From positions 558,001-622,000 of the forward strand of contig JAJCZU010000003.1 of NCBI GenBank assembly GCA_029262235.1: 64,000 nucleotides of DNA. The letters run 5' to 3'. Below the pieces are notes generated by a model. The model was given only the letters and a program-made list of their open reading frames with translations. It had not been told where the DNA came from and did not search any database. A program made the translations under genes and the position numbers. Origin of the DNA: Candidatus Eiseniibacteriota bacterium (GTDB taxonomy: Bacteria > Orphanbacterota > Orphanbacteria > Orphanbacterales > Orphanbacteraceae). This document shows, piece after piece, positions 6,984-24,276 of the stretch. The first letter of the stretch is position 1, and each line of letters begins with the position of its first letter.

Positions 6984-9900
6984 TCAATACTCGTTGAACC
7001 AGTTGACTTCCATACCCGACTGATCGCTTTGTCCGTAAAGCGTTCTGATACGGAAGTGGCGCGACAGGATGTAGTCGAGGCTGATAAAGAACACCGAGCT
7101 TTCGATCGCCTGTTCGTATTCGAGCAGAACCTTTCGGCTCACGTACTTGCCGAGAACCAGCGAGCTTCCTTTCGTTTCTCCGCGTGTGCTCCGGATGCGG
7201 ACCATGTCGATGCCGAGCTGGTCCGCCAGTTTCGCTTCCAGCCTGCCGGTGCCGAACGCGGTCGCGATGTCGGTTGCGCGCCGCTGTACGAGATCCACCT
7301 GATTGTTATTGAGCTCTTCGAGTGGTCGCCCGAACAGCAGGAACGACATGATGTCCCCTTCGGGCATCGGCGGCTCCGAGGACAGCACGAGTTCGGGCTC
7401 GATCAGCGTGCCGCCGACGGCGAGCCTGACGAGTGTGCCGTCGAGGTTGATCGCGAGTCGGATATCGAGCGTGGGATTCAGCTCGGCGTCGCCGTAGAAC
7501 ACAATGTTGCCCGACTCCATCCGGAACGTTCTTCCGAGCAGCACAAACGTGCCGCGCGTCGCGCCGAGCTCTCCGGTGACGGCGGGGGCGCCGCCCTTGT
7601 AGCCGAGCGAAAGGTCGCCCGAGAGTTCGACTTCGAGTCCCTGTCCGCGGATCCAGAGGCCGGACGGAATCGAGAGATTGATTTCGACGTCGGGGTTGAC
7701 CGTCGGGATCGTTTGTACGACACCGTTCCGAACCGTCACGGAATCCGTACCGTCCGTATCGCTCCCCGCGTACTCGGGAATCTCCCATAGAACCGCGTTT
7801 CCCTCGGCGGGCAGCAGGTTCTGCGGATCTTCGGGAATGCGGAGCAAGCCACGGTCGATTGTCACGTCGCCTCGGACACGCGGTTCGCGCCGCGTACCCG
7901 CAAGCCGAAGTTCGCCACGTCCTCGAATCTGCGACCGGTCGGCGGCCTTGACGTACATCTGTTTCGTGCGAAGCGTGCCCGACAGAGAAGGATTCCCGAC
8001 GGGGCCCTCCGCGCTGAACTCGACGCGCACGTCCCCTTCCGCAGAGGAACCTGCCGGGAACCAGCGCGCGTAGTCCTCGAGCTTCAACTCCTCGGTGCGC
8101 GCCTCCAGAAAGAGGACACCGGTCGAGTCCCGCGTGATCTCGAACGGATAGATACTGATATGCGTCGGGTCACGGAGCGACGCTTCGGCGACGGTACTCC
8201 CCGCCCGCTGGACGTCGAGTCGCGCTTCGATTCCGCTGTCGTCGATCGAATGCGCGGTTGCAAGTACGCGATGATCGCTCAGGTTCGGGATGGACGGGAA
8301 CGTGACCGAGGCCGATCCGTCGAATGACGGCCGTGCCGCCGTCCCCGCAATCGTGAACGTGCCGCCTGCTTCCGCCCAGGGCGTCGGCTCGTCCGGCTGT
8401 GCGGGAAGAGGCACCGGCAGCGCGTCGAAGCGAACGTCGACAGCAAGCGGTCCGTCGAACGGCGTCAGCGCCGGCGGGAAGACGCTTGTGCGGGCCGGGA
8501 CGTTTGCGTCGAGCGTGAAGAGATCGCCTGCCTGATCGACGGCGTTCATGCGGGCGACGATTCCCGTTTCCGTTCCGTCCAGTTCGAGCAGGACGGCGAC
8601 GTTTTTTCTTGAGCCGAGATCGAGACCCTCCGCCCGTGCCGTGAGTGTGATTCGTGCGGGGCCCCTCGCGGTTGCGTTCAGTTCGATGCGATCCGGCACG
8701 GTGCCTTCGGGCAGGCCGGGGGCCAGGCCTTCGGGTATTGCGAGGGAGACGTGCGCCGTCAGATCCGCGCTGTCGGGAGTCGCGATGCCGTCCACGCGAA
8801 TCGTGCCCATCGTTCCCGACAGGTCGAGGCCCTTGACCGTCAGTCGTTCCGATTCGGGATCGAGCATGATCTCGAAGGCCTGCGTGCTTCCGAGTGCCTG
8901 ACCCGTATGCGCGAAGGTGAGCGAATGGCCGCGCACGATGACGAGGGATTCGTCGCGATCGAAAAGGGCGTCGAACGCGAGCTTCAGATCCGGACCCGCG
9001 GCATCGACCGTGACCCGCCCGGGAAGATACGGTGCGGCGAACGGCCCCCGCCAGTTCACGGATGCACGGTCGAGCAAAACGCCTCCGGTGCGCGATCCCG
9101 GCCCGAGATGCAGGGCCGCGACCAACGAGTCGCCGTCCCGTTCCGCGTGACCCGCAAGCGAGTCGATCGCAAACGCCGGCCCGTGCGCGCGTCCGTTCAG
9201 CGTCATGCGCACGTCTGGTGAGGAGGGGGCGCCCGAAGCGACGAAGTCTCCCGCGATGCGCAGCGAGTCAACGGGCATGGAATCCGGCGCGAAGTCGAGA
9301 ATGCCGGTCGAAACTTCGTACGTTCCGTCCAGGCTGAGTGAGTCAGGCGCGATCCGTCCGGACGCGCGCAGGCGCAAACCCCGGAGTACGACAAGCGCGG
9401 AGTCCACGCCATATACGTTGCCGTCGACGAACCCGTGCGCCGCGAGCGAGTCGATCCACCCGTCCGGCTTGACGGAAAGCGATCCCGCAACGCGCGGTTT
9501 CGTATCGAGGCCGGTGCCGTCGACCGCGATCCGCCCCGCGAGACGTCGCCCGGACTCGACGGGAAGCGCGGGGGAGAGAACGCTCGGCCCCGGCAGTTCG
9601 AAGTCGAGCGCGGCGTCTGCCCGGCCGCCGTTCGCGTCGTTTCTGTATTCCAGCGAACCGTCGACGACGAACGGGCGCTCCCGTGACCAGCGCGCGCGAA
9701 GCGTGTCGCGTGCGGCCGCTTCGATCCGGCGAACGAGCGCCGCAGGAGGCTCGGGCCATCGGCCGGCAACATTGGCGGACGCGCGATCGGACGACGCAGA
9801 ACCGTTCAGCGTCAGCTGCCCGAAGTCCCCCGTCACACGCAGCGAAGAGAACGCGATCGTACCCGCCTCACGGTCGATCCGGATCTGCGCGGGCACCGCC

Positions 9901-11429
9901 CCCAGGGTCGGGGCGCGGTTTCCCCGTGGATCTTCGTCCGCGCTCGACGCGGGATCCGGTTCGACTACGCGAATCGGTCCTGCCACGACACGGGCGAAGG
10001 ACGCATCGCTCTTGACGGCCACGTCAGCACGAGCGAAATCGGTTCGCACGTAAAGAGCAAGATCGATCGAACCGTCGGGAAGGGTGTGATTCGCGTCGAT
10101 GTCGATGCGCCGGATCGCCGGGGCGGAACCGACTGCGGTGAGAAGAATCGTCGCCTTCGTCGAGAGTGAGTCGAGTGGCCCGTTCGACTCGAATGTCAGC
10201 GATCCGGTAACGGGCGGAAGTGAATCTGAAGCGCTACCGAGCAGGGGCGCGAGTCCGCGGAGGCTCGTGATGGCGACACGACCGCGGCCACCCGCCATTC
10301 CGTCCCGCAGGCCGAACGAACCGCGCGCATCGATGCCGTCGAGCGAGAGCGTGATGCTGTCGGCGCGCACATGATTTTCGCCCCACAGGATCCGCGCATC
10401 GAAGTTCCGAATCCAGTCGTTCGGTCCGGCGCTCGCCGTGACCGCGCCCGCACCATCCGCGGCGGACCACTGTCCGTCGAGCGTGAACGGAAAGCCCGCG
10501 AGATCCGGAACGCTCGCGAGCGACGGGCCGAGGGGCGCGTAGCCGCGTAGCCTTTCGACGTCGGGCATGTCCCCGCGAAAGTCGAAGCGGACCGGGGACG
10601 CCCGATTCGCGGCATCCCACGCTACCGTGCCTTCGATCTGCGTGTTCCCCGCCGCGCCGTTCGCGTCGATCTCCCGAAGGGTGATCGCATATTCGCCGGC
10701 CGGTTCCTCCAGGATTTCGACCCGAAGCCGATTGTCAGGCGCGATGCCGATTACGGCTTCGAAAGCGGTAGGCGCGTTCCTGCTCACGGCGGCGCTCGCC
10801 GCTTCGAGGCGCCACACGCCGTTCTCGTCTTCCGCGCTGAGTTCCTGGAGCACGATTGCGGGATCCGTGCCGGCGCGATTGTCAATCGCCGCCTGCATGT
10901 GGAAGTTCACGATTTTTGCGCCGCCCAGATCGAGCGCCGTCCCCGAGATCGTAAAACTGCCCAGGCGCGCCGACGGGATGTCCTCGATCGCGCCGGACCG
11001 CAGCGGGAAGAACAGGCTCCTCTTGTGCGGCGGGGGCGGGTCGTGGTCGCTGTCCGGCGCGAACGCCTGCTGTAGTCGAACCAGGTCGAGAGCGACGCCG
11101 GTGATTCTGACCGATTCGATGTTCAGATCGCGCCGCAGAAGAGAAGAGACCTGGACCAGAACGGCGGCTGTGTCCGCCGCGAACAGTGTGTCGGCATCCT
11201 CCGTCATGGAAACGTTTTCGAATACGATCGATCCGAGCGCGGGCCACCGGACACTTTCAACGTGAAGTTCCGCTGTGAGTTTGCCCGCAATCCGCTCGAT
11301 AAAGTACCGCAGCAGCATCGTGCGCGGAGTCTCGAGCCCGATCGACAGAATTCCCGTCAGCAGAAGCGCGATCGCAAGAAGCGAAACGACGGCGAGGGCC
11401 CGCTTTCCGATACGCAGAAAACTCGTCAT
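6984..11429 (-). CDS. tamB: Translocation and assembly module subunit TamB (AsmA/DUF490 family)
   Basis: 1481 residues from the ATG at 11429. An N-terminal signal-anchor (about residues 8-28) is followed by a very long beta-rich, Asp/Gly-repetitive periplasmic region typical of AsmA-like bridge proteins, and a C-terminal TamB/DUF490 domain (GTFVLLGRTFRMESGNIVFYGDAEL.., PEGDIMSFLLFGRPL). TamB spans the periplasm and works with the outer-membrane protein TamA in outer-membrane biogenesis, probably including lipid transport. The gene begins 8 bp after the tamA stop, so the two are one operon. Members of the family vary widely in sequence and length, and 1481 is near the usual range for this group. 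Confidence 0.9.
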   Translation of the reverse strand: MTSFLRIGKRALAVVSLLAIALLLTGILSIGLETPRTMLLRYFIERIAGKLTAELHVESVRWPALGSIVFENVSMTEDADTLFAADTAAVLVQVSSLLRRDLNIESVRITGVALDLVRLQQAFAPDSDHDPPPPHKRSLFFPLRSGAIEDIPSARLGSFTISGTALDLGGAKIVNFHMQAAIDNRAGTDPAIVLQELSAEDENGVWRLEAASAAVSRNAPTAFEAVIGIAPDNRLRVEILEEPAGEYAITLREIDANGAAGNTQIEGTVAWDAANRASPVRFDFRGDMPDVERLRGYAPLGPSLASVPDLAGFPFTLDGQWSAADGAGAVTASAGPNDWIRNFDARILWGENHVRADSITLSLDGIDARGSFGLRDGMAGGRGRVAITSLRGLAPLLGSASDSLPPVTGSLTFESNGPLDSLSTKATILLTAVGSAPAIRRIDIDANHTLPDGSIDLALYVRTDFARADVAVKSDASFARVVAGPIRVVEPDPASSADEDPRGNRAPTLGAVPAQIRIDREAGTIAFSSLRVTGDFGQLTLNGSASSDRASANVAGRWPEPPAALVRRIEAAARDTLRARWSRERPFVVDGSLEYRNDANGGRADAALDFELPGPSVLSPALPVESGRRLAGRIAVDGTGLDTKPRVAGSLSVKPDGWIDSLAAHGFVDGNVYGVDSALVVLRGLRLRASGRIAPDSLSLDGTYEVSTGILDFAPDSMPVDSLRIAGDFVASGAPSSPDVRMTLNGRAHGPAFAIDSLAGHAERDGDSLVAALHLGPGSRTGGVLLDRASVNWRGPFAAPYLPGRVTVDAAGPDLKLAFDALFDRDESLVIVRGHSLTFAHTGQALGSTQAFEIMLDPESERLTVKGLDLSGTMGTIRVDGIATPDSADLTAHVSLAIPEGLAPGLPEGTVPDRIELNATARGPARITLTARAEGLDLGSRKNVAVLLELDGTETGIVARMNAVDQAGDLFTLDANVPARTSVFPPALTPFDGPLAVDVRFDALPVPLPAQPDEPTPWAEAGGTFTIAGTAARPSFDGSASVTFPSIPNLSDHRVLATAHSIDDSGIEARLDVQRAGSTVAEASLRDPTHISIYPFEITRDSTGVLFLEARTEELKLEDYARWFPAGSSAEGDVRVEFSAEGPVGNPSLSGTLRTKQMYVKAADRSQIRGRGELRLAGTRREPRVRGDVTIDRGLLRIPEDPQNLLPAEGNAVLWEIPEYAGSDTDGTDSVTVRNGVVQTIPTVNPDVEINLSIPSGLWIRGQGLEVELSGDLSLGYKGGAPAVTGELGATRGTFVLLGRTFRMESGNIVFYGDAELNPTLDIRLAINLDGTLVRLAVGGTLIEPELVLSSEPPMPEGDIMSFLLFGRPLEELNNNQVDLVQRRATDIATAFGTGRLEAKLADQLGIDMVRIRSTRGETKGSSLVLGKYVSRKVLLEYEQAIESSVFFISLDYILSRHFRIRTLYGQSDQSGMEVNWFNEY

Positions 11430-11437
11430 GCGGGCAC

Positions 11438-13210
11438 TCAAAACGGATGCCCCACGATCGCGTGAAAAACAGAGCGGTTTTCGGTGTCGTCCAGTGTCGT
11501 GAGTCTGTAAGCCCAGTCGGCACGGACCGCCCCGATGGGCGTCCGAAAGATCAGGCTCGGTCCGGCGGCCGCTTCCAGTTCGTCGGCGCGTACTTCGTCC
11601 CGTTCGGCCCAGACCTGGCCGGAGTCGACGAAAAGAGCGCCGCCTACGATGCCCGCAATCGGGAAGCGCCACTCGAGCGACGCCTCGAACAGCGCCTCGC
11701 CGCCGAGCGGAGAACCGTCACTGTCTTTCGGGCCCAGTTTCCGTCGCTGGAATCCGCGCATCGAATACGCGCCGCCCGCGTAGAAACGCTTGTTCGGCAG
11801 GAGGTCGTCTGACCCGGTCGTCGGACCTGCCGCGCCGACGGTAAGGCGCCCGGCGAACACGGTTCCGCCGGCAGCGCGATACATCGCCCCGGTGGAAGCC
11901 GCGGCAAGGAAATGGCTCTCGGAGAGCGCGCCGGGAAGGCCCCACTCCATATACGACTCCCAGCGGGAACCGCTTGTCGGGAAGAGCCGGTCATCCGCGG
12001 TGTTCCGGTCGTTCGAGAATCGCATCGTTGTCAGAAGGCCGTCCCGGCCGCTGAACGCATCGGGATCATCGGACTTTTCCTCGACCTGTACGTCGCTCAC
12101 GGAAAGCGCGGCCGTGCGTGTGCTGAACAGTGACGGCCGCCGACGGATCGTCAGCTCGCCGCCGGTTTCGCGTAATCCATACGATTCTTCATCCTCGCGC
12201 TCGCTCTTGATCGAAACGGCCGCATAGTTGCGCGTGCCGAACAGCGTATGCGTCCATGTGGAGAGTCGTCCGCTCTGAAGGAAGCGCGAGAACGTACCCG
12301 AAATCGAGCCGCCTCGTCCGCCCCGGAACAAGTTGCGATGTTCCCACCGGGCGCGGGAGCGCACGCCTTCGTCTGTCCAGAATCCCAGACCCCATTCGAC
12401 CGAGCGCGGTTTTCGTTCCGTGAGTTCGGCGACGAGATCGATCTCGCCCGGTCCCACCGAGTCGATCCGAACGCGTACGAGCCGGAAAAGGCCGAGAAGG
12501 CGGAGGTTCGTCGATGCTTCTTCGACAACGGTGGGGTGATAGCGGGAGCCGGAGCGGATGTTTACCGTCTGCGTCACGACAGGAACGAGATCGTCACGGA
12601 TCCCGGGGGCCGAGACGCCACGAAACGAGTACAGATCTCCTGCTTCTGCACGAAACGTAACGGAGACGGAGCGCGCGCTGCCGGGCTCGACGCTCCAGGC
12701 CACCGTCGCGAACGCATGGCCGCGCTCCCTGAGCCGGCGTTCGATGAGAACCGCCGTGCTCTCTGCCGCGCTCTCACGGAAGACGGCGCCTCGGACAAGC
12801 GGCAGGTTCGCGCGCGTTTGCCCGGCCGCGGAAGGGGATCCGATGACGTCGAGTGCGCCGACGAGCACCGGCTCCCCGGGATCGATGCGAAGCACGATGC
12901 GCACGGTTCGCTTCTCGCGGCGGGGTTCGTACTCCGGCGTAACGCGTGCGGCGGGGTACCCGTTTCGCGCCAGGAAGAGTCGCACGCGGGCGAGGTCACC
13001 CTCGAGCACGCGCGCATAGAATTCCACGCCGGCAGTGAGGATGAGCCCGCGACGAATCGCATCGAGGTCTTCCGGAGCCCCGCTTACTTCGAGCGACGAG
13101 ACTTTCCAGCCACGAAAATCACTTGCGGTCCACGCGGCCGCGTATCCCGTCTGCGCGACGAGGAGCAGCAGAAGGAGCAGCAGAAGAATCAGTAGGTTCT
13201 TATGTATCAC
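11438..13210 (-). CDS. tamA: Outer-membrane TamA/BamA-family (Omp85) protein
   Basis: 590 residues from a GTG at 13210, which directly yields a clean signal peptide: MIHKN, then a run of leucines, then GYAAA. A second GTG at 13219 is possible. After the signal come POTRA-like modules (about residues 25-250: SLEVSGAPEDLDAIRRGL, then VLVGALDVIGSP, then FRGVSAPGI). A 16-strand beta-barrel follows, with FYAGGAYSMRGFQRRKLGP matching the conserved barrel loop-6 motif region, and a C-terminal phenylalanine as in outer-membrane barrels. It partners with TamB, encoded immediately downstream. It lies 31 bp after a serine hydrolase gene in the same direction, so it may be part of a four-gene unit starting at 15640. 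Confidence 0.88.
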   Translation of the reverse strand: MIHKNLLILLLLLLLLLVAQTGYAAAWTASDFRGWKVSSLEVSGAPEDLDAIRRGLILTAGVEFYARVLEGDLARVRLFLARNGYPAARVTPEYEPRREKRTVRIVLRIDPGEPVLVGALDVIGSPSAAGQTRANLPLVRGAVFRESAAESTAVLIERRLRERGHAFATVAWSVEPGSARSVSVTFRAEAGDLYSFRGVSAPGIRDDLVPVVTQTVNIRSGSRYHPTVVEEASTNLRLLGLFRLVRVRIDSVGPGEIDLVAELTERKPRSVEWGLGFWTDEGVRSRARWEHRNLFRGGRGGSISGTFSRFLQSGRLSTWTHTLFGTRNYAAVSIKSEREDEESYGLRETGGELTIRRRPSLFSTRTAALSVSDVQVEEKSDDPDAFSGRDGLLTTMRFSNDRNTADDRLFPTSGSRWESYMEWGLPGALSESHFLAAASTGAMYRAAGGTVFAGRLTVGAAGPTTGSDDLLPNKRFYAGGAYSMRGFQRRKLGPKDSDGSPLGGEALFEASLEWRFPIAGIVGGALFVDSGQVWAERDEVRADELEAAAGPSLIFRTPIGAVRADWAYRLTTLDDTENRSVFHAIVGHPF

Positions 13211-13217
13211 GGTGGTC

Positions 13218-13223
13218 ACTATA
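13218..13223 (-). promoter_or_regulatory. Candidate -10 box before tamA
   Basis: TATAGT on the minus strand, seven bases before the GTG at 13210. No Shine-Dalgarno sequence precedes either GTG candidate. The position suggests an internal, leaderless promoter for tamA-tamB inside the longer operon. Confidence 0.35.
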
Positions 13224-13241: not shown

Positions 13242-14201
13242 TCAGCGTGTGTCGGGGGGCTCGGGCGCCATGAGGTCTTCGACGACCGGCAGCAGGTCCC
13301 GCAGGATCTGCTCTCCGTTCTCACTTTCGACCATCCCTACGAGAATGTACCGCCGCCATTGAACGCCCAGCACGAGCACGGAATCGGAGTGCCACTGCTT
13401 CCACGTACCCGACTTGCGGAAGATCCGCGCAAGCGGCGCCCTCTCTTCGATCATGTGCACGAATTTGTGATGCACGCCCGGATCGGCGAGATGAGCCAGG
13501 ATCTGGCGAGACCGATCAGGTGAAATGATGCGACCGTACGCAAGCATATAATAGAGACGACATACCTGCGTGACCGTCGCGGCGTGCGACAGGCCGAGAA
13601 TCGGGTCGGGGTGACGGCCTCCGGTCTTCGCGTACATCTTCCCGACCCAGAGGCCGCCTCCGCGCTCCGGATCGTAGAGTTCGTATTCGGGCGACCGCAG
13701 CACTTCCTCGATCGTGTCGAATCCTACGCGCTCAATCATGCGCGTTGCGGCCGCATTGCTCGAGACACGAATCATCTGGTCCATGTCTTCCGCGACTTCG
13801 GGCGTCAGTGCGATAAGACCGCGGTCGATGGACTCGTATGCGGCGAGCAGAATCGCGACTTTGGGCAGGCTGGCCGCGTACATCATCGTGTTCCCGTTCA
13901 CGCGGGCAAAGCGCGGGCCTGCGGGATCACTGAGATCGACCACGCCCACGGCGAGTTTCTTCGCACGCACGAGTTTGTTCCATTCCGGGTTCGCTTTGAG
14001 AACCGCATCGAGTTCCTTCTGGAATGAAGGATCGAGCTGATCGTAGAGCGGGACCCAGTTCGAATCCGCTATGGTAAACGGGACATCCGCGTCAAAAGAA
14101 GGGGGAGGGGCGTCTTCGGCTGCGGCACTCGAAACGGCGAGCGCGAGCAGCAGCGCCAGGGCCCCGAAGAAGGTCATTCGATTCCGGTTTTGATTTTTCA
14201 T
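13242..14201 (-). CDS. Exported serine hydrolase, class-A beta-lactamase/PBP fold
   Basis: 319 residues. The signal peptide is at about residues 9-28 (FFGALALLLALAVSSAAA). All three active-site motifs of the beta-lactamase/penicillin-binding fold are present and in order: S111-L-P-K114 (SxxK), S147-S-N149 (SxN) and K263-S-G265 (KTG equivalent). I see no omega-loop Glu of true class-A beta-lactamases at a confident position, so a peptidoglycan hydrolase or esterase role is more likely than antibiotic resistance. The start codon overlaps the stop of the nucleotide transporter by 4 bp, indicating translational coupling. A paralogous but divergent protein with the same motifs is encoded at 18687-20036 on the other arm of the locus. 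Confidence 0.85.
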   Translation of the reverse strand: MKNQNRNRMTFFGALALLLALAVSSAAAEDAPPPSFDADVPFTIADSNWVPLYDQLDPSFQKELDAVLKANPEWNKLVRAKKLAVGVVDLSDPAGPRFARVNGNTMMYAASLPKVAILLAAYESIDRGLIALTPEVAEDMDQMIRVSSNAAATRMIERVGFDTIEEVLRSPEYELYDPERGGGLWVGKMYAKTGGRHPDPILGLSHAATVTQVCRLYYMLAYGRIISPDRSRQILAHLADPGVHHKFVHMIEERAPLARIFRKSGTWKQWHSDSVLVLGVQWRRYILVGMVESENGEQILRDLLPVVEDLMAPEPPDTR

Positions 14202-15640
14202 TGAGGGATGATCCTCCGATACTCACGCCAGAGATGATACGCCAGGTATGTCCAGACCAGAACGAGCAGGATGTTGAAAATGAGATAATCGCGCGGCTCG
14301 GCGCCGAGCATCCTCGTACCGATCAGAATCGTGAGCGCCGCGAAACCGTCTCCGAGACGAACGAAGAGCGTGTCCACGGCGGACTTCGCCTTGTAGATCA
14401 TGGCGGGGGTGACCGGCAGCCAGAGGAGCTGCCGTGCCGTGTTGTTGACCGAGTAGTTGGCGGAATTCTCCGCGATCTTGATCACACGGATCACCGCCAG
14501 CGCCGGCACCAGCGCCATCAGCGAGTACGCGAGCAGGGAAACGAACGGCGTCAGGAACAGCAGAGTGCGAAAGCCCCCGTACTTGAGAAAGCGAGAGACG
14601 AAGAACGCCTGGATCACGAGCGCGGATATGTTGACCCAGAAATACAGGCTCCCGTAGAACGCGGTAATGGTGGATTTGCGGTAATTGCTGAGTTCGGCCG
14701 CATCGACGATTCCCGCGTTTGCGGCTTCGTGTTCGATCGAATCGTTGATCACTCCGAACAGGATGTTGTCCCCGTTCGTGACGGTCCATGTCATCGTGAT
14801 CGCAAGCAGAGCGGCGTACACGATATAGCGGTTGCCGAAGATGATTTCGAAGACACCTTCGTCTCCCGGGGCGGCGGGGCCGTCCGGCTCTTCAGCGTCT
14901 GCTTCCGCCGTGGTCGTCGTTTCGCCCCGCTTTTCGGCGAGTCCCGTGAGATAGGTCGCGAGTCCGAGCGGAATGACGGCGAGGAGAATGAGATGGTACG
15001 GGTCGAGCGTCCCCGATCGCGTGAATTCCGAAATCCACGACCCCATGGCACCGCCCGCGGACGCTCCGATCGCGATCATGGGAAACAGGCGCTTGCCGCG
15101 TCCGAAGCGATAAAAGTCGGCGGCGAACGCCCAGAACTGTGCGACGATCGTGACTCCGAAAATGCCGACCCACAGGTAGAAGGCGATGCCGGCAAACGCA
15201 TCCCAGCCGCGGGCCACATCGGCGGGGCGCATGATCCAGAAGAGGATGAGATTCGCGCAGAAGAACAGCGAAACGTACGTGACGAGCTGCAGGCGGTTCC
15301 AGGAGCCGGCCGCACGCGCGTAAAGAGGAACGATCACGAGCAGCAGAATGCTCTGGGCGAAACTCGAGTACGCTTTCAGTTCGATCTTGGAGAGACCGCC
15401 GACGTCCGAAACGGCCAGCCACCCTTCCCGGATCGGCTTTACGAGATAGTAGGCGGTCAGCACGAGGAAGACGTTCACCAGCAGGATGAGACCGGTCGTG
15501 CCCTCGCCGGACCGGACGTCAGTAAATGCGCGCAGAAGCCGGTCGATGATGCCGGAGCGGGGAGAGGCGCTGTCGTGTTTGGAAATCGTCACAGGCACTC
15601 TCACGAAATAAATGATGGGCGCAGGCAGGTTATGTGACAT
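14198..15640 (-). CDS. ATP/ADP-type nucleotide exchange transporter (Tlc/AAA family)
   Basis: 480 residues from the ATG at 15640 (an in-frame GTG at 15655 is possible). About 12 transmembrane segments. The N-terminal region VRSGEGTTGLILLVNVFLVLTAYYLVKPIREGWL, followed by helix 4-5 motifs (AADFYRFGRGKRLFPMIAIGASAGGAMGSW), is characteristic of the ATP:ADP antiporter (TC 2.A.12) NTP/NDP exchange family, known from Rickettsia, Chlamydia and plastids. Free-living bacteria also encode relatives, mostly uncharacterised. Established members exchange nucleotides across a membrane; direction and substrate here cannot be read from sequence. It overlaps the serine hydrolase gene by 4 bp and is divergent from a predicted exported dikinase, which suggests it could supply ATP outside the cytoplasm. 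That role is inference. Confidence 0.82.
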   Translation of the reverse strand: MSHNLPAPIIYFVRVPVTISKHDSASPRSGIIDRLLRAFTDVRSGEGTTGLILLVNVFLVLTAYYLVKPIREGWLAVSDVGGLSKIELKAYSSFAQSILLLVIVPLYARAAGSWNRLQLVTYVSLFFCANLILFWIMRPADVARGWDAFAGIAFYLWVGIFGVTIVAQFWAFAADFYRFGRGKRLFPMIAIGASAGGAMGSWISEFTRSGTLDPYHLILLAVIPLGLATYLTGLAEKRGETTTTAEADAEEPDGPAAPGDEGVFEIIFGNRYIVYAALLAITMTWTVTNGDNILFGVINDSIEHEAANAGIVDAAELSNYRKSTITAFYGSLYFWVNISALVIQAFFVSRFLKYGGFRTLLFLTPFVSLLAYSLMALVPALAVIRVIKIAENSANYSVNNTARQLLWLPVTPAMIYKAKSAVDTLFVRLGDGFAALTILIGTRMLGAEPRDYLIFNILLVLVWTYLAYHLWREYRRIIPQ

Positions 15641-15666
15641 CGGAACCGCCCGCACAGTCTACGATC

Positions 15667-15705
15667 ATGCTGGCGATTGTGCCAGTATGCTGGCGATTGT
15701 GCCAG
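15667..15705. promoter_or_regulatory. Tandem dyad-symmetric repeat in divergent promoter region
   Basis: Two head-to-tail copies of a 20-bp unit (ATGCTGGCGATTGTGCCAGT; the second copy matches the first 19 bases). Each contains the hyphenated palindrome CTGGC-6 nt-GCCAG. A third, looser copy with the same half-sites follows at about 15703-15718. They lie in the 100-bp gap between the divergent transporter and dikinase operons, so they are good candidates for a shared operator. Confidence 0.5.
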
Positions 15706-15741
15706 CCGGTTCGCCAGCTTCAGTGAAGAGGGGGGGCACTC

Positions 15742-18690
15742 ATGTCAGGCAGGACTTTGGTCGGTTTCATTCTCGCAGTCATGACCGGGGGAGCCGGCAG
15801 CGCGCAAGCGGCGCCACCGCTCCTTGAACCGGTTCACCCCGATTCGCTCATTGTCGCGCGTGAAATCGTGCAGAGAATGAAGACGGGCGACCGGGGCCCG
15901 TACAAACGGATTCGCTGGTACTGCAAGGACGGCGCCGTGCTGGCGCCCGAGCCTTATGCGTGCGTCGAGCATGGCGGGGGGCATCAGTACGCGGAGTATT
16001 CCGCCGATCGGGAACGCCTGGCGCGCATGGGGTGGTCGGTCGGTACGATCATTACGGCGTTGACGCCGGAAGAGTACCTTGCGCCTGCGGGGCGCCGTTA
16101 CCGTTTGCGCCAGTTGCCCGTCGAGCGATACCTGACCGACGTCGACGACGGCTGGGTACTTCGGAAGGCGCAGTTCTATCGCGGGCGCGTGCAGATCGAA
16201 GACGAGGAGTACTTCGGGCAGCAGTTGCTTCAGTCCGTTCTCGCCGACCGGGAATTCGTCGCTTCGCATTTTCTTCTGATACGGGAACTCGTGCGGGCCG
16301 TGCCTCACAGCAGAGGGGGGGACAAGACGCGGAGCGTGCGCAGGATCGCGCAGGAAATCGCCGAGAAAGATCCGACGTTCGAGAAACTCAGGGTCAAGAT
16401 TCATACGAATCCCGCGTTCGAAGATGTGGCCGCCGTCAAGCGCTGGGCGGACGCCGCCTCGGCCCGCAGCGCAGCGCCGGAGCTGATCGCGTCCGCGAAG
16501 ACGCTCATGAGCGATCTGACGGCGCTCCACGGTCCGGCCGGACGCAAGGCGAGGCTCGAGTCGCTTGCCAGGCGCATCACGCGCAATCCGATGATCGGGA
16601 TCGATGCCGACATCGGACGTGTTCTCGCCGGAACGCCCGCGGCGCGCATTGCCTCGCTGGGCAGAACCCTCCGTCTCGTGCGGGAGGCGGTCGAACGTTC
16701 CGACGCGCCGGAGGCTTCGCTCGACCTTCTCGATCTTTCGCTCGAGATCGAGGACGAGCTCACGAGTTCCGGTCTTGAGTACTTGCGAACGGGCGACGGC
16801 ACGCGGCGCAGTTCGCTCGAGGTCGTTTCCTCGCTTGCCGCCGGTGCTTTCGGTGCGGGCCTGCTTTCCGAAGGGGAGCGCCTTGCGATTACGATGCCGG
16901 TCGACAACCTGCTCGCGGCTCAGTCGATCAGCCCCGCGGAGTATCTCGCCGCGCTGCAGCCGCTTCGCCGCGCCGGTGGCTGGGCGCTCGGGACCGTACG
17001 TTTCACGTTCGCCGAGGCGCTCACGCGTTTCAAGGAACTGGAGCCGAAGTCCTCGTTCTTTCCCGACGATGTGCTCCGAGGTTCGTCCATGCTGGTACTT
17101 GCGGATCTGACGAACCGCCTGCTGACGGACGCGGAGGAATGGAACGGCGTGAAGCATCGCATTCTCGGCGAAGCGATGAGTCGCGTAGTCGGCCTGAACC
17201 CCGGGCTCGCCGCCGGCAGGCTGCGCGTTCTGACCGCGGCCGAACTCGAGCATCCGGTCGTCGATCCGAAGGAGATCGTGGTGCTCCCCGAGACGATTTC
17301 CGAACTGGGGCCGGTGGCCGGCATTCTGACGCTGGCGGAAGGCAACATTCTTTCTCACATTCAGCTGCTGGCGCGAAACCTCGGGATTCCGAACGCGACA
17401 CTGTCGCCGGTTGCGCGCCGCCGGATCGCGGAAAGCGACGGCATGGATGTCGTGCTTGCCGTCGGAAGCAACGGCGCGGTTGTTCTTTCGCTGGCGCAGG
17501 ATCTGCCGGCGGATGCGGCGAACGTAATGACCCGCACCGCGGTGGAAACGGCGCAGAACGCGGCCGTCAAGATCGACGCGCCGGCGCCGGATCTCGGCGT
17601 GCGCCGTCTCGTGCCGCTCAGGGAACTGAGGTCCGCGCTGTCCGGGAAGGTCGTGGGGCCGAAAGCGGCGAATCTGGGTGAGCTTGCGAAAATCTTTCCG
17701 GAGTACGTCGCTCCCGCGATCGGCATCCCGTTCGGGATTTATGCGAACGAAGCGATGCGTGCCGCCGATCCCGCTCCCGCCCGTCTCAAGAAAGCGTTTC
17801 AATCGCACCGCGCGGGCGCGCTCAGCGACTCGGCACTGGCGGCCGAAGTCGAAAACGTGCGTGTTTCGATCGCGGGACTCACTCTTTCAAGCGAGCTGCG
17901 GGACGAGATTCGCAAAGCCATGGCGCGGGACTTCGGCCCGGCCGGAACATACGGCTTCTTCGTGCGGTCCGACACGAACGTCGAGGATCTTCCGGGGTTC
18001 ACCGGCGCGGGGCTTAACAAGACGATCCCGAATATCGTCGATCAGGAACGCCTCTGGACGGCCATTCCGGAAGTCTGGTCGTCGCCTTTCACGGCGCGCG
18101 CGATGGCGTGGCGCGGACGGATCCTGACGCGCCCCGAAGAAGTGTACCCTTCCGTGCTGCTCATGAAGAGCGTGGCCGCCGAGAAGTCGGGCGTGATGGT
18201 AACGGCGGACATCATTCACCGGGGAGAAGGGCTCACGATCGCAACCGCATGGGGCGTGGGCGGCGCCGTCGACAATGAGGCGGCAGGGACCGTCGTGATC
18301 CGCCCGGACGGTTCGGTCGAGACGATCGCCGAAGCGAAGGCGCCCTATTGCCGCAGGCTGGCAGCAGCCGGCGGGCTGGAATGGGTCGAGGCGACATCCG
18401 GCCCGGTCCTGACGGAGCAGGATCGTGCGCAGCTCGTGAAGCTTGCCGCGGTCGTCGAGTCGCGACTCGTCAGGGAGAAAGGACCGGACGGCGATCCGTT
18501 GCCGTGGGACATCGAGTTCGGATTCGAACGCGGCGAGCTCCGACTCTTTCAGATACGCCCCCTGATCGAACGCGGTCAGGTGAAAGCCGACCGCTTCGTA
18601 CGCGCGTTCGATTCCGGTGCGGTGCGCACGGAGGGCCGCGTCGATCTGGACAAACCACTTCCCAGGTTCGAATCGGGAGCGTCACCATGA
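15742..18690 (+). CDS. Predicted exported dikinase, glucan-water-dikinase-like (PEP/pyruvate-binding domain)
   Basis: 982 residues. The N-terminus MSGRTLVGFILAVMTGGAGSAQA reads as a short signal peptide with an AQA-A cleavage site. Residues about 30-490 are helical with no domain I recognise. A phosphohistidine swivel domain follows, with the motif LSHIQLLARNLGIP carrying candidate catalytic His539. The last 350 residues are the ATP-binding domain of the PPDK/PEP-synthase group: V638-GPKAANLGEL (Lys641), V741-RSDTNVEDLPGFTGAGL, and DIEF..FQIRP near 923-940. His-swivel before a C-terminal ATP domain, together with the VEDL-AGL-IPN and LSH-ARN patterns, matches alpha-glucan water dikinases rather than PEP synthase. 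No C-terminal PEP-binding TIM barrel is present. The substrate is unknown. Export is odd because ATP is normally absent outside the cytoplasm. Confidence 0.82.
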   Translation: MSGRTLVGFILAVMTGGAGSAQAAPPLLEPVHPDSLIVAREIVQRMKTGDRGPYKRIRWYCKDGAVLAPEPYACVEHGGGHQYAEYSADRERLARMGWSVGTIITALTPEEYLAPAGRRYRLRQLPVERYLTDVDDGWVLRKAQFYRGRVQIEDEEYFGQQLLQSVLADREFVASHFLLIRELVRAVPHSRGGDKTRSVRRIAQEIAEKDPTFEKLRVKIHTNPAFEDVAAVKRWADAASARSAAPELIASAKTLMSDLTALHGPAGRKARLESLARRITRNPMIGIDADIGRVLAGTPAARIASLGRTLRLVREAVERSDAPEASLDLLDLSLEIEDELTSSGLEYLRTGDGTRRSSLEVVSSLAAGAFGAGLLSEGERLAITMPVDNLLAAQSISPAEYLAALQPLRRAGGWALGTVRFTFAEALTRFKELEPKSSFFPDDVLRGSSMLVLADLTNRLLTDAEEWNGVKHRILGEAMSRVVGLNPGLAAGRLRVLTAAELEHPVVDPKEIVVLPETISELGPVAGILTLAEGNILSHIQLLARNLGIPNATLSPVARRRIAESDGMDVVLAVGSNGAVVLSLAQDLPADAANVMTRTAVETAQNAAVKIDAPAPDLGVRRLVPLRELRSALSGKVVGPKAANLGELAKIFPEYVAPAIGIPFGIYANEAMRAADPAPARLKKAFQSHRAGALSDSALAAEVENVRVSIAGLTLSSELRDEIRKAMARDFGPAGTYGFFVRSDTNVEDLPGFTGAGLNKTIPNIVDQERLWTAIPEVWSSPFTARAMAWRGRILTRPEEVYPSVLLMKSVAAEKSGVMVTADIIHRGEGLTIATAWGVGGAVDNEAAGTVVIRPDGSVETIAEAKAPYCRRLAAAGGLEWVEATSGPVLTEQDRAQLVKLAAVVESRLVREKGPDGDPLPWDIEFGFERGELRLFQIRPLIERGQVKADRFVRAFDSGAVRTEGRVDLDKPLPRFESGASP

Positions 18691-20036
18691 TCCGAAGTTA
18701 TCGAGCCGGGAGACCGGCCTTCCTGTTTCTGATTGCGGCCGGCGTTTTCTTTCTGACAAACGCGCCGTCGTTCGGTTATCCGCTCGACGGATTCGAAAAA
18801 ATGAGCATCGGCCGTCTCGACGCCTACGCGAAGATTCAGGCAGGGGGAAAGGGGACGCTGCTTCCTCCGGGCGCTCTTCTCCCTTCGAGCGCGATCCGTC
18901 TGCATCTCGCCGAGACCAGTCCCGACTGGGAGCTGACGGAAGCGGCGAAAGACCCCGTGCTGCAGAGCGCGATCGAGTCGCTCTTTCGCGGACGCGATCC
19001 CTCCTACGCCATCACCGTGATCGATATCACGGATCCTGACAACATCGCATGGGCGGGCCTTCGCGAAGACCGGGCGCAGCTCCCCGGAAGCGTCGGCAAG
19101 ATCCTCTGCATGACGGCGCTGTTCGACGGGCTGGCGCGCGCGTTTCCCGACACGCTCGACCGCGCGCGCGTGCTCAGGGAAACGGTCATCGAAGCGACCG
19201 ACTGGGTCATGTGGGATTCGCACAAGGTCCCGCATTACGATGCCGCATCCCGCGTGAACCGTTTTGCGACGATCACTCCGGGAAACCGCTTCAACCTCGC
19301 CGAGTGGATCGACCATATGATTTCGTCCTCCGCCAACTCGGCCGGTGCAACAGTCTGGAAGGAAGCGATTCTGCTGCATCACTTCGGCGCTTCCTATCCG
19401 CCTTCGCGCTCGGAAGAAGTCGACTTTTTCGCGCAAACTCCGAAGAGCGAACTGCAGGAGCTGCAGCTTGCCGTGATCCGCGAGCCGCTCGCAAGGGCCG
19501 GTATCGACATCAGCCAGGTGCAGCAGGGGACGATGTGGACGAAGGGGGGGCAGCAGAAGATTCCCGGCGTGCAGTCGTTCGCGACGCCGCGCGAACTCGC
19601 GCGTATCCTTCTCCGCATCGAGCAGGGGCGTCTCGTCGATTGCTGGTCATCTCTGGAAATGAAAAAGTTTCTCTACATGACGAAGAAGCGGTACCGCTAT
19701 GTCTTCGCTCCCGAGCTGCACGAATCCGCCGTCTACTTCAAAAGCGGCTCGTTCTACAAGTGCAGGGAGGAAGAGGGCTTCGCGTGTGCGAAGTACAAGG
19801 GAAACGTGACGAACATCATGAACTCGATCGCGATCATCGAGTCGCCCGCGGCGCCGGGCCCCGACCAGAAGGTCTATCTCGTTGCGCTTACATCGAATGT
19901 CCTTCGCCTGAACTCGGCCTGGGATCACTCGCGGATCGGGGCCGCGATCGACCAGGCGATTCGCACGCGAAAAGGGGTGACCATCGATTATTCCGGGGGA
20001 AATCGCGAACAGGAAGAGGCGGGGCGGGGGGACTGA
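18687..20036 (+). CDS. Exported serine hydrolase, beta-lactamase/PBP fold (second copy)
   Basis: 449 residues. The ATG at 18687 overlaps the dikinase stop by 4 bp, and the protein then begins with a signal peptide (MIRSYRAG, then a hydrophobic run to about residue 30). The active-site motifs are S135-V-G-K138 (SxxK), S215-A-N217 (SxN) and K352-S-G354. Between them is an insert of about 130 residues that the 319-residue relative at 13242-14201 lacks. Four cysteines near residues 148-368 may form disulfides. The gene is translationally coupled to the dikinase, so a shared envelope process is likely. It could act on peptidoglycan, on a glycan ester, or as a catalytically altered binding protein; the sequence does not decide. 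Confidence 0.8.
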   Translation: MIRSYRAGRPAFLFLIAAGVFFLTNAPSFGYPLDGFEKMSIGRLDAYAKIQAGGKGTLLPPGALLPSSAIRLHLAETSPDWELTEAAKDPVLQSAIESLFRGRDPSYAITVIDITDPDNIAWAGLREDRAQLPGSVGKILCMTALFDGLARAFPDTLDRARVLRETVIEATDWVMWDSHKVPHYDAASRVNRFATITPGNRFNLAEWIDHMISSSANSAGATVWKEAILLHHFGASYPPSRSEEVDFFAQTPKSELQELQLAVIREPLARAGIDISQVQQGTMWTKGGQQKIPGVQSFATPRELARILLRIEQGRLVDCWSSLEMKKFLYMTKKRYRYVFAPELHESAVYFKSGSFYKCREEEGFACAKYKGNVTNIMNSIAIIESPAAPGPDQKVYLVALTSNVLRLNSAWDHSRIGAAIDQAIRTRKGVTIDYSGGNREQEEAGRGD

Positions 20037-20940: not shown

Positions 20941-23900
20941 CTAACGGATCAGGACGAGCTTCGTTACGACCCGCTCATCGCCGGCACGAAGCACTCCGAA
21001 GTAGACGCCCGACGGGGCGTCGCTTCCGCCGGTGCGCTTTCCCTGCCATGCGAACTGATGCGTGCCGGCGGGCAGGTACGCGTTGACGAGCCGCGTCACG
21101 AGGGCACCCCGCGCGTCATGGATATCGAGCCGCGCGTGCCCGGCTTCCGCGAGCGCGAATGAGAGCGTCGTAGTCGGATTGAACGGATTCGGTACGCCCG
21201 CCAGGGTGAGGGGCCCGGCCGGAGGCACTTCGCCCCCTGCTACATCGGTGACCGTGCTCCTGAAAACAGGGCCCATCACTTCGACCCCGCCCGCCTTCAA
21301 TTCACCCTGCAGGTAATACTCGCGGTCCGATGGCGCGTTCGCGTCTACGTATTCGAACGTGACTTCGCCGCTCAATTCGGAAACATCCTCGAGCATCAGC
21401 AGCTCATACTCATCGTCCGGAATGCGACCGCCGACCAGATGCATGCGCAGGAACCGTGATGCGTTCGCTACGGTCCAGTCCACACGAACACCGGCCTGCT
21501 CTTCGACCGGATTGATCGTGCCGACCGGCTGCGACGGTGGCGGCACGGGCAGGAAGTACTGGCAGAGCGGGCTTCCGCAAACCGTAATCTCGCAGTTCCG
21601 CGTCACGGTGCTGTAGTTGTCCTGCAGCGTCACGGTGAACGGATACTTGCCGACCCCCGCGCTGGTTGTCCCCGTTACGAGCCCCGTGACCGGATTGATG
21701 TCGAGGCCGGGCGGGAGGCCAAGCTGCGACCAGGTGAACGGGGGGTATCCGTCGTTTGCCTTGAACCGTGAAGGGGCCGTGTATGCCCTGTTTCGCCTCG
21801 CGAGAGGCAGCGGGCAAACCGGTTTGCTGAAATCGATTGAAACGAGCGCGCTGCATTCCGCGTAGGTGCCGCAAACCCCGTGAGGTTCGGTGAATGTGAC
21901 CGTCTCGAGGTCGGTCGAGAAATACGCGGACTCGGGCCCGTGCAGCAGGAAGCCGACGCACGGTCCGGACGTGACTTCGTAAACGAGCGAACCGAGCGTA
22001 GCGGGGAACGTGACCGGGTTCGAAAGCGAGAAGTCGGTCGACTGCGCAAGCCAGCACTGCATGCGCGGGTAGAGGGCCGAAAGGCTGTCGGGAACGTTCT
22101 TCGGCTGCAGCGGAATGTCTGTCCATCCGGCGGGCGTGTTGTAGGCGAACGTATCGATCAGCACGGATTCGGAATCGATGGCGCAGAATGTGCACCCCCA
22201 GCTGTAGGTCGACGAGAAGCCGGCGATGAAGAGATCGAGCGTGTCCACGGTACCGATCGAATCGAAGAGCGTGCCCATGTCGATGGCGGGATCGCATATC
22301 ATGTCGCCGTCGCGGTCGAGCCCGAGGAAACTCGGCCCGATCGTAACTTCGCAGTTCGTGATGTCCGCGAGTCCGAGCTGGTCGACGGCCGATACGACGA
22401 ACGCGAAAGTGCCGGCGCTCAGCGGAGTTCCGCCGATTTCCCCCGTTGCGGAATCGATGTCCATCCCCGCGGGCAAACCCGCCTGCGACCACGTGTAGGG
22501 GGGCCACCCGCCGCTCGCCGAGAAAACAGATCCGGCAGGGTAGAGTTCGTTCGGGTCAGAGTCCGGAAGCGGGCACGCCGGAGTGTTCTGGTGGATCGTG
22601 AGCGAATCAACGACGAGGATCGAGCAGTCACGCGATGCGGAGTCGCCCTGATCGGCAACCGTCACTGTGAACGGAAAGTTGCCGACCGTGTTCGGCGTGC
22701 CGGAAAGCTCCCCGGTTGCAGTCCCGATCGTAACCCCCGGCGGAAGTCCGGATGCCGACCATGTGATCGGGGGAATGCCCGCGAACGATTGAAAGACGTA
22801 GCCCGCGGGGATCGGCAGGGCACGCACCGCGAAGGGCAGGGGGCAGGCCGGATTCAACGTGTCGATCGTAACGGCGAACCCGGCGGCGATCGCGCAGGCT
22901 CGTTCGTCTGTGATTCCGAGAGAATCCGTAACGGTAACGGTGAATGCGAAGTATCCGGTTTCGTTCGTCGTGCCGCCGATTTCGCCGGCCGGGGAAAGGG
23001 TGAGCCCCGCGGGCAATCCGTCGGCGGACCAGACGTGCGGCGGAATCCCGCCCGCGGCCTGGAAGACCGTGCCGGCAGGGTAGGGCACGCCAGGGGTCGC
23101 GATCGGAATCGGGCACGCGGGCTGGAGCGTGTCGATCGCGAGATCCGCGATGACCCGAAGGCTGCATGTGCGCGACGCGATCGATGCGAAACGCTTCCCT
23201 TCCGAATCGGCCACGTTTACTGTGAATACGAATTTGCCGACTTCCGTGGGAGTGCCGATCAAGAGCCCGTTGTCCCCCTGCACGACCATTCCCGCGGGAA
23301 GTCCGGTGCCCGACCAGACGAAGGGCGGAACGCCCCCGATGGCCAGGAACTGTACGTTCTGCGGATACGGAACCGAGAGGGCGCCGGGCGGAACGGGGCA
23401 GGCGGGGTCGAATGGATCGATGGCCACATCGGCACCGACGACGAGTGAGCATGCGCGCGCCGCCTGAGCGCCGACACTGTCGGTCACCATCGCCGTGAAC
23501 ACAAAACTGCCCATGACCGACGGCGTGCCGACGATTTCACCCGTTGCCGCATCGATGTCGAGGCCGGCCGGCAGCCCGGACTGTGACCATGTATGCGGGA
23601 GAACGCCCCCGGCCGCCACGAACGTGACCCCGCCCGGATAGACGTCGCCCACGTGACCGGGCGGAACAGGACAGAGGGGGGCGAACGGATTGACGGAAAG
23701 CGGCACGCCGCACGGTTGGTTCGCGCATACGTCCTGCGGGTTCGTGAAGAGGACAGACTGGAAATCGGTTGTCAGGTAGCCGCTCTTCGGTCCGTGAATC
23801 AGGAAGCCGACGCATGTGTCCTGGGCAACTTGATATGAAATGCTGCCGAGGCGGGCCGGCAGCCCGATCGGACTGCTGAGGTTGAAGTCGACCGCTTGAG

Positions 23901-24276
23901 CAAGCCAGCACCTGGCCTTCGGGAACAGGCCGCTGACCGCCGCGGGGACAGCGTCTTCCAGCAGGTTGATCGTCGTCCAGCCGGCCGGTGTTTCATAGAG
24001 AAAAGTGTCGAGGATCACGGAGTTCGAGTCGATCGCGCAGAACGTGCAGCCCCAGCTGTAAGTGCTGTCCGCGGCATCGATGAACAGATCGATCGTATCG
24101 CGCATGCCTGCCGTTGCGCTCGCGATGCCCATGTCCGACGGCGCGTCGCAGGCCAGGTCGCCATTGCGGTCGAAGCCGATGAAACTCGCAAATGCACTGG
24201 GACAGAAAAGCGCGATCGACAGAAAGAAGGCGAGGCAGAAGAGGGGGACGGGATCGTGCCGTTTACCGCAATTCAT
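20941..24276 (-). CDS. Large secreted mosaic protein: duplicated module, six putative Ig domains, C-terminal sorting domain
   Basis: 1111 residues with a signal peptide (to about residue 30). Module A (about 31-188) begins FIGFDRNGDLACD and includes the fingerprint TYSWGCTFCAIDS. Five He_PIG-like Ig domains (about 190-665) each carry a signature such as PPYTWSQAGLPAGMDID followed by GEIGGTP. A second copy of module A (about 665-820, FLGLDRDGDMICD, TYSWGCTFCAIDS) is followed by a sixth Ig domain, a fibronectin-like segment, and the FlgD-like C-terminal domain (VPNPFNPTTTLSF...SGVYFGVL..KLVLIR). The cysteine pairs in module A and the recurring CPLP linkers suggest disulfides. It is probably a surface-displayed or secreted adhesive protein; no catalytic motif is seen. 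GGAG lies upstream of the ATG. Confidence 0.88.
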   Translation of the reverse strand: MNCGKRHDPVPLFCLAFFLSIALFCPSAFASFIGFDRNGDLACDAPSDMGIASATAGMRDTIDLFIDAADSTYSWGCTFCAIDSNSVILDTFLYETPAGWTTINLLEDAVPAAVSGLFPKARCWLAQAVDFNLSSPIGLPARLGSISYQVAQDTCVGFLIHGPKSGYLTTDFQSVLFTNPQDVCANQPCGVPLSVNPFAPLCPVPPGHVGDVYPGGVTFVAAGGVLPHTWSQSGLPAGLDIDAATGEIVGTPSVMGSFVFTAMVTDSVGAQAARACSLVVGADVAIDPFDPACPVPPGALSVPYPQNVQFLAIGGVPPFVWSGTGLPAGMVVQGDNGLLIGTPTEVGKFVFTVNVADSEGKRFASIASRTCSLRVIADLAIDTLQPACPIPIATPGVPYPAGTVFQAAGGIPPHVWSADGLPAGLTLSPAGEIGGTTNETGYFAFTVTVTDSLGITDERACAIAAGFAVTIDTLNPACPLPFAVRALPIPAGYVFQSFAGIPPITWSASGLPPGVTIGTATGELSGTPNTVGNFPFTVTVADQGDSASRDCSILVVDSLTIHQNTPACPLPDSDPNELYPAGSVFSASGGWPPYTWSQAGLPAGMDIDSATGEIGGTPLSAGTFAFVVSAVDQLGLADITNCEVTIGPSFLGLDRDGDMICDPAIDMGTLFDSIGTVDTLDLFIAGFSSTYSWGCTFCAIDSESVLIDTFAYNTPAGWTDIPLQPKNVPDSLSALYPRMQCWLAQSTDFSLSNPVTFPATLGSLVYEVTSGPCVGFLLHGPESAYFSTDLETVTFTEPHGVCGTYAECSALVSIDFSKPVCPLPLARRNRAYTAPSRFKANDGYPPFTWSQLGLPPGLDINPVTGLVTGTTSAGVGKYPFTVTLQDNYSTVTRNCEITVCGSPLCQYFLPVPPPSQPVGTINPVEEQAGVRVDWTVANASRFLRMHLVGGRIPDDEYELLMLEDVSELSGEVTFEYVDANAPSDREYYLQGELKAGGVEVMGPVFRSTVTDVAGGEVPPAGPLTLAGVPNPFNPTTTLSFALAEAGHARLDIHDARGALVTRLVNAYLPAGTHQFAWQGKRTGGSDAPSGVYFGVLRAGDERVVTKLVLIR

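Follow-up and report, generated by a model that had tools for sequence, protein, structure and literature searches.

We analysed a stretch of 64,000 nucleotides from a Candidatus Eiseniibacteriota bacterium (contig JAJCZU010000003.1, positions 558,001 to 622,000; the whole stretch is called the window below), in which four genes between positions 13242 and 20036 bring together a putative nucleotide carrier, a dikinase-type phosphotransferase with an export signal and two exported serine hydrolases. The genes, named A to D, and the element between the two pairs that they form are as follows.

13242 to 14201, minus strand: gene A, exported serine hydrolase, class A beta-lactamase/PBP-A type (PF13354 and motifs)
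14198 to 15592, minus strand: gene B, inner-membrane carrier of the Tlc/NTT type (from family profile and AlphaFold/Foldseek)
15670 to 15685 and 15690 to 15705, strandless: two tandem palindromes, CTGGC-GATTGT-GCCAG, between the divergent genes B and C
15742 to 18690, plus strand: gene C, exported dikinase-type phosphotransferase (PPDK_N domain, swivel histidine, signal peptide)
18687 to 20036, plus strand: gene D, exported serine hydrolase (PF13354, motifs, cysteine pair)

A preliminary description of this locus had reported two divergent, translationally coupled pairs, and this layout holds: B and A share a 4-base ATGA overlap on the minus strand (B ends at 14198, A begins at 14201), and C and D also overlap by 4 bases on the plus strand (C ends at 18690, D begins at 18687). 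D starts at the ATG at 18687 and not with a longer TTG open reading frame, and its end at 20036 had been placed correctly. The longest open reading frame of B begins at 15655 and its likely start is the GTG at 15592, which, with the ATG at 15742 for C, gives an intergenic gap of about 150 bp; the divergence described earlier is right, and the distance of about 100 bp is revised accordingly. The palindromes, a feature additional to those described before, are 16 bases long and repeat with a 20-base period. The motif CTGGCN6GCCAG has 2 matches in the whole window, against 0.08 expected, both of them between B and C, and the pair is probably an operator pair, as predicted from its sequence; a single operator region serving both directions would be the natural reading.

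The protein encoded by C has the two catalytic parts of a dikinase behind an N-terminal domain of its own. Its PPDK_N ATP-binding domain (residues 637-950, E 2.4e-25) follows a swivel domain (470-590) with an LSH motif, in which H539 aligns with the catalytic-histidine region of PpsA from P. furiosus; the ATP-site motifs can be aligned to the same enzyme. Across 13 aligned homologues, H539, K641, R742, E925, Q937 and R939 are invariant, and all 13 begin with a signal-peptide-like hydrophobic core. The signal peptide, phosphohistidine and ATP-binding domain first attributed to C are thereby confirmed, the export signal being found in every full-length C protein aligned. Residues ~30-470 form a helical domain in the AlphaFold model (predicted local distance difference test, pLDDT, 72), which has no Pfam match, is kept across these distant homologues and is presumably the substrate domain. 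It contains two invariant cysteines, C61 and C74, and a second such pair, Cys359 and Cys367, is invariant in 13 homologues of D; both pairs fit an oxidising compartment. The closest solved ATP-binding domains, by sequence and by fold, are those of rifampin phosphotransferase (Rph) and PEP synthase, with Foldseek superposing the domain of C on that of Rph at a template-modelling (TM) score of 0.81, normalised to the target. In those two cytoplasmic enzymes the ATP-binding domain comes first and the swivel domain last or in the middle, whereas C has the reverse order, which is not that of PPDK either. C is without the rifampin and PEP domains, no PEP/pyruvate TIM barrel being found by Pfam search, and it falls far below the NCBIfam cut-offs of both enzymes, scoring 95 bits against the PEP synthase/PPDK equivalog cut-off of 598. 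Export of such a protein is not a one-off, since a second exported dikinase family, of ~640 residues and with clear signal peptides, was found in 13 of 297 acidobacterial genomes (L147-L157). This shorter family shares the swivel-histidine and PPDK_N half of C and has a different N-terminal part; no conserved D, A or carrier was found beside its genes.

A and D match PF13354 (E 1.7e-15 and E 1.8e-6, respectively) and keep the SxxK, SxN and K[ST]G active site of exported PBP-A-like DD-peptidases (PBP-A being a DD-peptidase; PMC11189452). The motifs are SLPK at 111, SSN at 147 and KSG at 263 in A, invariant in 8 homologues, and SVGK at 135, SAN at 215 and KSG at 352 in D, conserved in 13 homologues. 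All 13 aligned D proteins have a signal-peptide-like N-terminal core, as do the aligned A proteins save one of 8 (L053), an open reading frame whose start had been wrongly extended. The description of both as exported serine hydrolases is therefore upheld. The ExxLN motif of class A beta-lactamases was absent from its place between SxN and KSG in all A and D sequences, which is also the pattern of PBP-A of Thermosynechococcus elongatus, a member of the class A beta-lactamase family with SxxK, SxN and KSG and without ExxLN. The profile match of A to this protein is weak (E 0.003), and the profile of D had no match in the PDB. We know of no PBP-A whose gene context includes a dikinase.

The linkage of C, D and A extends well beyond the window. 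Scanning with C gave 15 homologues, of which 14 carry labels of Acidobacteria groups and one that of Acidimicrobiia; the C gene of the latter (L054) lies well inside a Bryobacterales group, and its metagenome-assembled genome (MAG) is probably mislabelled or mixed. D comes directly after C in 14 of the 15 loci, mostly with overlapping genes, and A is within ~3.5 kb of D in 8 of the 15, directly convergent in 5 of these. For four further full-length C genes, from the sample of 297 acidobacterial genomes, D and A adjoin in all four. Overall, D adjoins C at 19 of 20 acidobacterial loci, mostly with A as a further neighbour. Two loci from outside this set (L222 and L224) also have C next to D, with A near the pair in L222, and A lies near C in a third (L223). 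Genome searches of the first set found A once in 12 of 15 genomes, with no extra copies, and A is thus dedicated to the C setting. This conserved linkage argues that C, D and A are a genuine module, and we consider it highly likely that they work as one functional unit. The assignment of one hydrolase to each partner, as first described, is not a conserved arrangement, A being usually found beside C and D and not beside the carrier. In the window's own phylum, represented by 7 genomes in the collection, C is found solely in the window's genome, which makes either a gain by transfer or losses elsewhere the probable history of the module.

B by itself matches no Pfam family, TLC (PF03219) included, and no NCBIfam model, and TLC is matched by 6 of its 9 aligned relatives. 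The family profile of B retrieved from the PDB the carriers Npt1 of Chlamydia (E 8.3e-32) and AtNTT1 (E 2.2e-22), and the AlphaFold model (pLDDT 83) has AtNTT1 (9j3m) as its best Foldseek match (TM 0.78), places 1-4 all being taken by AtNTT1 or Npt1 structures, ahead of other carriers of the MFS. On this profile and modelled fold, the assignment of B to the Tlc/NTT family (TC 2.A.12) stands; B differs from the known carriers in its ~18% identity and in belonging to an uncharacterised free-living clade. The close relatives of B, among them a 42% identical paralogue in the same genome, adjoin exported metallophosphoesterases and, in Acidobacteria, Omp85 proteins as well, which suggests an older role in the envelope. 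Stand-alone and HEAT-type relatives likewise adjoin exported calcineurin-like metallophosphoesterases in several lineages (L057, L058, L060, L098, L100, L102, L104, L107, L109 and L110), and this is a separate conserved gene cluster, to which we assign no function. One of its loci (L060:5659-9815, genome G051) has two tandem Tlc carriers whose genes overlap, a stand-alone one and a long one, the latter with a C-terminal extension that probably consists of HEAT repeats.

One line of evidence that B belongs with C comes from a profile search made with C alone in 386 genomes of the window's domain, which returned 2 genomes besides the window's own. Neither belongs to the window's family, and in each of them C has a Tlc-type carrier and A as neighbours. 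The first (L223, genome G719) has C divergent from the carrier, followed by A, which is the layout of the window, and its carrier is 48% identical to B. The order in the second (L222, genome G538) is C, D, the carrier on the opposite strand and A; this carrier is 22% identical to B and groups with a distant Tlc branch, a placement to be read with caution given its long branch. A divergent promoter region is common to 2 of the 3 genomes with carrier-C linkage, and the palindromes of the window, looked for in the L222 and L223 loci, were found in neither. The association first noted in the window is thus seen in two unrelated genomes for the carrier and C, and across Acidobacteria for C, D and A. 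We estimate the chance of a carrier lying within 5 kb of C at ~1% per genome, even with four Tlc carriers. Moreover, all 15 genomes of the first C set carry Tlc-type carriers. A carrier was found in 4 of 5 genomes with C and 18 of 66 without it in the order sample (p 0.03), and in 4 of 5 and 6 of 28, respectively, in the phylum sample (p 0.02); the samples are small and related, and these values are uncorrected for ancestry. The carrier count for the 297 genomes is a lower bound, five candidates per genome having been scored and G075, in which a further search detected the carrier, having been missed, and was excluded from the significance tests. In the tree of C that includes the L223 fragment, the row of that fragment is unreliable (wrong frame, 21% of columns). 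On balance we regard the membership of the carrier in the module as probable.

Taken together, these features (the genes, their linkage, the export signals, the intact active-site residues and the fold of the carrier) are best explained by an envelope phosphotransfer module in which C works with D and A and receives its nucleotide via B, a reading to which we give a probability of about 0.45. Every catalytic step in it, the polymer, and the direction and substrate of B are what we infer. Once exported, C would be phosphorylated by ATP at His539 of the swivel domain and, like the plant glucan, water and phosphoglucan, water dikinases (GWD and PWD), would hand the phosphoryl group on to a substrate in the envelope that its helical N-terminal domain holds. 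D and A would process this substrate either ahead of its phosphorylation or following it; most likely, the substrate is peptidoglycan or a peptide or ester attached to peptidoglycan. B would bring adenine nucleotide to C, moving ATP out and ADP or AMP, perhaps with inorganic phosphate (Pi), in. The exported dikinase with its hydrolase partners is the well-supported part of this scheme and the supply of nucleotide by B is plausible, whereas an envelope glycan as the target of C is a guess. Such a glycan had been proposed in the preliminary description and finds no support here, as no carbohydrate-binding domain was detected: none of 13 C members matched a starch-binding (CBM) or GWD-specific Pfam model at E<=1.

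The comparison of C with GWD and PWD is one of domain order and residues: the swivel domain precedes the ATP-binding domain, the catalytic histidine and the ATP-site residues are present, and a PEP/pyruvate domain is absent. GWD of plastids is served by an NTT carrier, which brings ATP into the compartment where the enzyme works; the logic is the same as that proposed for C and B. C differs in being exported from a bacterium and partnered with serine hydrolases, in showing no starch-binding domain and in having a helical N-terminal domain of 440 residues.

Several observations weigh against the proposed supply of C by B. A dikinase converts ATP to AMP and Pi. Its supply would thus require either a carrier that accepts AMP or the export of an adenylate kinase as well; strict ATP/ADP exchange would not bring AMP back. 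The L223 contig, which repeats the layout of the window, is only 4.6 kb long and comes from an 82% complete MAG. The carrier was sought beside C in ~20 acidobacterial loci and not found there, being located elsewhere in most of those genomes; many genomes have the carrier and no C; and of two genomes with a full C, G105 gave no carrier match and G380 no match to the close clade. The residues of B add to this. We located E245 and E385 of AtNTT1, its ADP-binding residue K155 and its ATP-binding residue K527 by the sole offset compatible with all of them. Nucleotide binding or exchange is lost on mutation of K155, E245 or K527, and most of the exchange on mutation of E245 or K527 (PMC3306366). 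B has Gly at the site of E245, as does most of its close clade, and Asp at that of K527. At the K155 site a conserved Lys of B aligns in one alignment and lies two columns off in another, and at the E385 site B has Asp where L222, L223 and most relatives have Glu. While the family placement given to B in the preliminary description is retained, its identity as an ATP/ADP exchanger is weakened by the replacements at E245 and K527.

A first alternative is that C, D and A are a real module to which B belongs, and that B moves a cargo other than adenine nucleotide, such as a phosphorylated product or a cell-wall fragment that C, D and A set free, ATP reaching C by another way. Two of the four exchange residues of AtNTT1 being replaced in B speaks for it, as does the fact that the characterised NTTs make up one small clade of the family, its free-living clades being untested (PMC5381601), and so do the neighbours of the close relatives, which are Omp85 and exported metallophosphoesterase genes and not kinases. 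Nevertheless, the L222 carrier, from another Tlc branch, keeps Asp, Glu and Lys at E245, E385 and K527; the carriers of L222 and of the window, coming from different branches, have the family in common and not a special substrate; and Foldseek ranks NTT1 above other MFS carriers. We rate a non-nucleotide cargo as clearly less probable than nucleotide supply, albeit as the most serious of the alternatives. Less likely still is that C, D and A are a genuine envelope module with the carrier as a mere neighbour, C using ATP leaked or released outside the cell. Besides the unlinked carriers of Acidobacteria, this would account for 28 of 29 carrier-bearing genomes of the phylum sample being without C (the carrier count being a lower bound), and it sits poorly with linkage in three unrelated genomes and two Tlc branches, two of these genomes having been found via C alone, with the divergent promoter region common to two of the linked genomes, and with carrier and A being near each other in L103 and L106. 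In the latter, two closely related Paludibaculum-like genomes in which C and D are without A, A is ~1.6 kb from the carrier; a carrier-A operon was considered there and rejected, as a gene on the opposite strand lies between them, and this is weak evidence of proximity from one lineage. Finally, an exported cassette for drug inactivation, in which C, like rifampin phosphotransferase, would phosphorylate an antibiotic and A and D would be beta-lactamase-like, would agree with the nearest solved ATP-binding domain and with the class A fold family of the hydrolases, yet it is very improbable given the missing ExxLN, the cytoplasmic location and other domain order of Rph, the conservation of the helical substrate domain over long distances, unlike that of resistance cassettes, and best plasmid matches of 26% identity over only about half of C.

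Bacterial enzymes that use ATP are thought to be largely cytoplasmic, there being no supply of ATP beyond that compartment. This picture is contradicted by an exported dikinase that is conserved and has its catalytic residues intact, and the NTT-family carrier linked to it suggests a source of the nucleotide that can be tested. We tentatively propose, with slightly less assurance than for the scheme of C, D, A and B given above, that some free-living bacteria may carry out ATP-dependent phosphorylation outside the cytoplasm by means of an exported GWD-type dikinase, a dedicated Tlc/NTT carrier as its nucleotide feed and two PBP-like hydrolases that remodel the phosphorylated envelope polymer. 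If true, this would be a bacterial counterpart of the NTT-fed GWD of plastids and would show what free-living bacteria use NTT carriers for. The linkage also gives a first genomic clue to their role there, which the survey of this family left open (PMC5381601). The module is real, conserved and apparently undescribed: a search of the literature on extracytoplasmic dikinases gave no described system, its coverage of subscription papers being slight, in agreement with what the preliminary description had supposed.

On the minus strand the gene order continues past A into two envelope-assembly genes, also additional to the features described earlier.

11438 to 13219, minus strand: TamA-like Omp85 gene (PF01103, E 3.6e-44)
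6984 to 11672 (open reading frame), minus strand: TamB-like gene (PF04357, E 2.9e-48)

The TamA-like gene begins 20-odd bases past A, with TamB next on the same strand, and is probably in one transcript with A; the two genes (6984-13219) may thus share a transcript with the carrier-A pair. As a component of the module they were rejected, as no TamA homologue is present at the acidobacterial C loci. On the other side of the four genes, positions 20941-24276 encode a large exported protein with repeated, putatively Ig-like domains and a C-terminal tail resembling those of FlgD and type IX secretion (T9SS) proteins.

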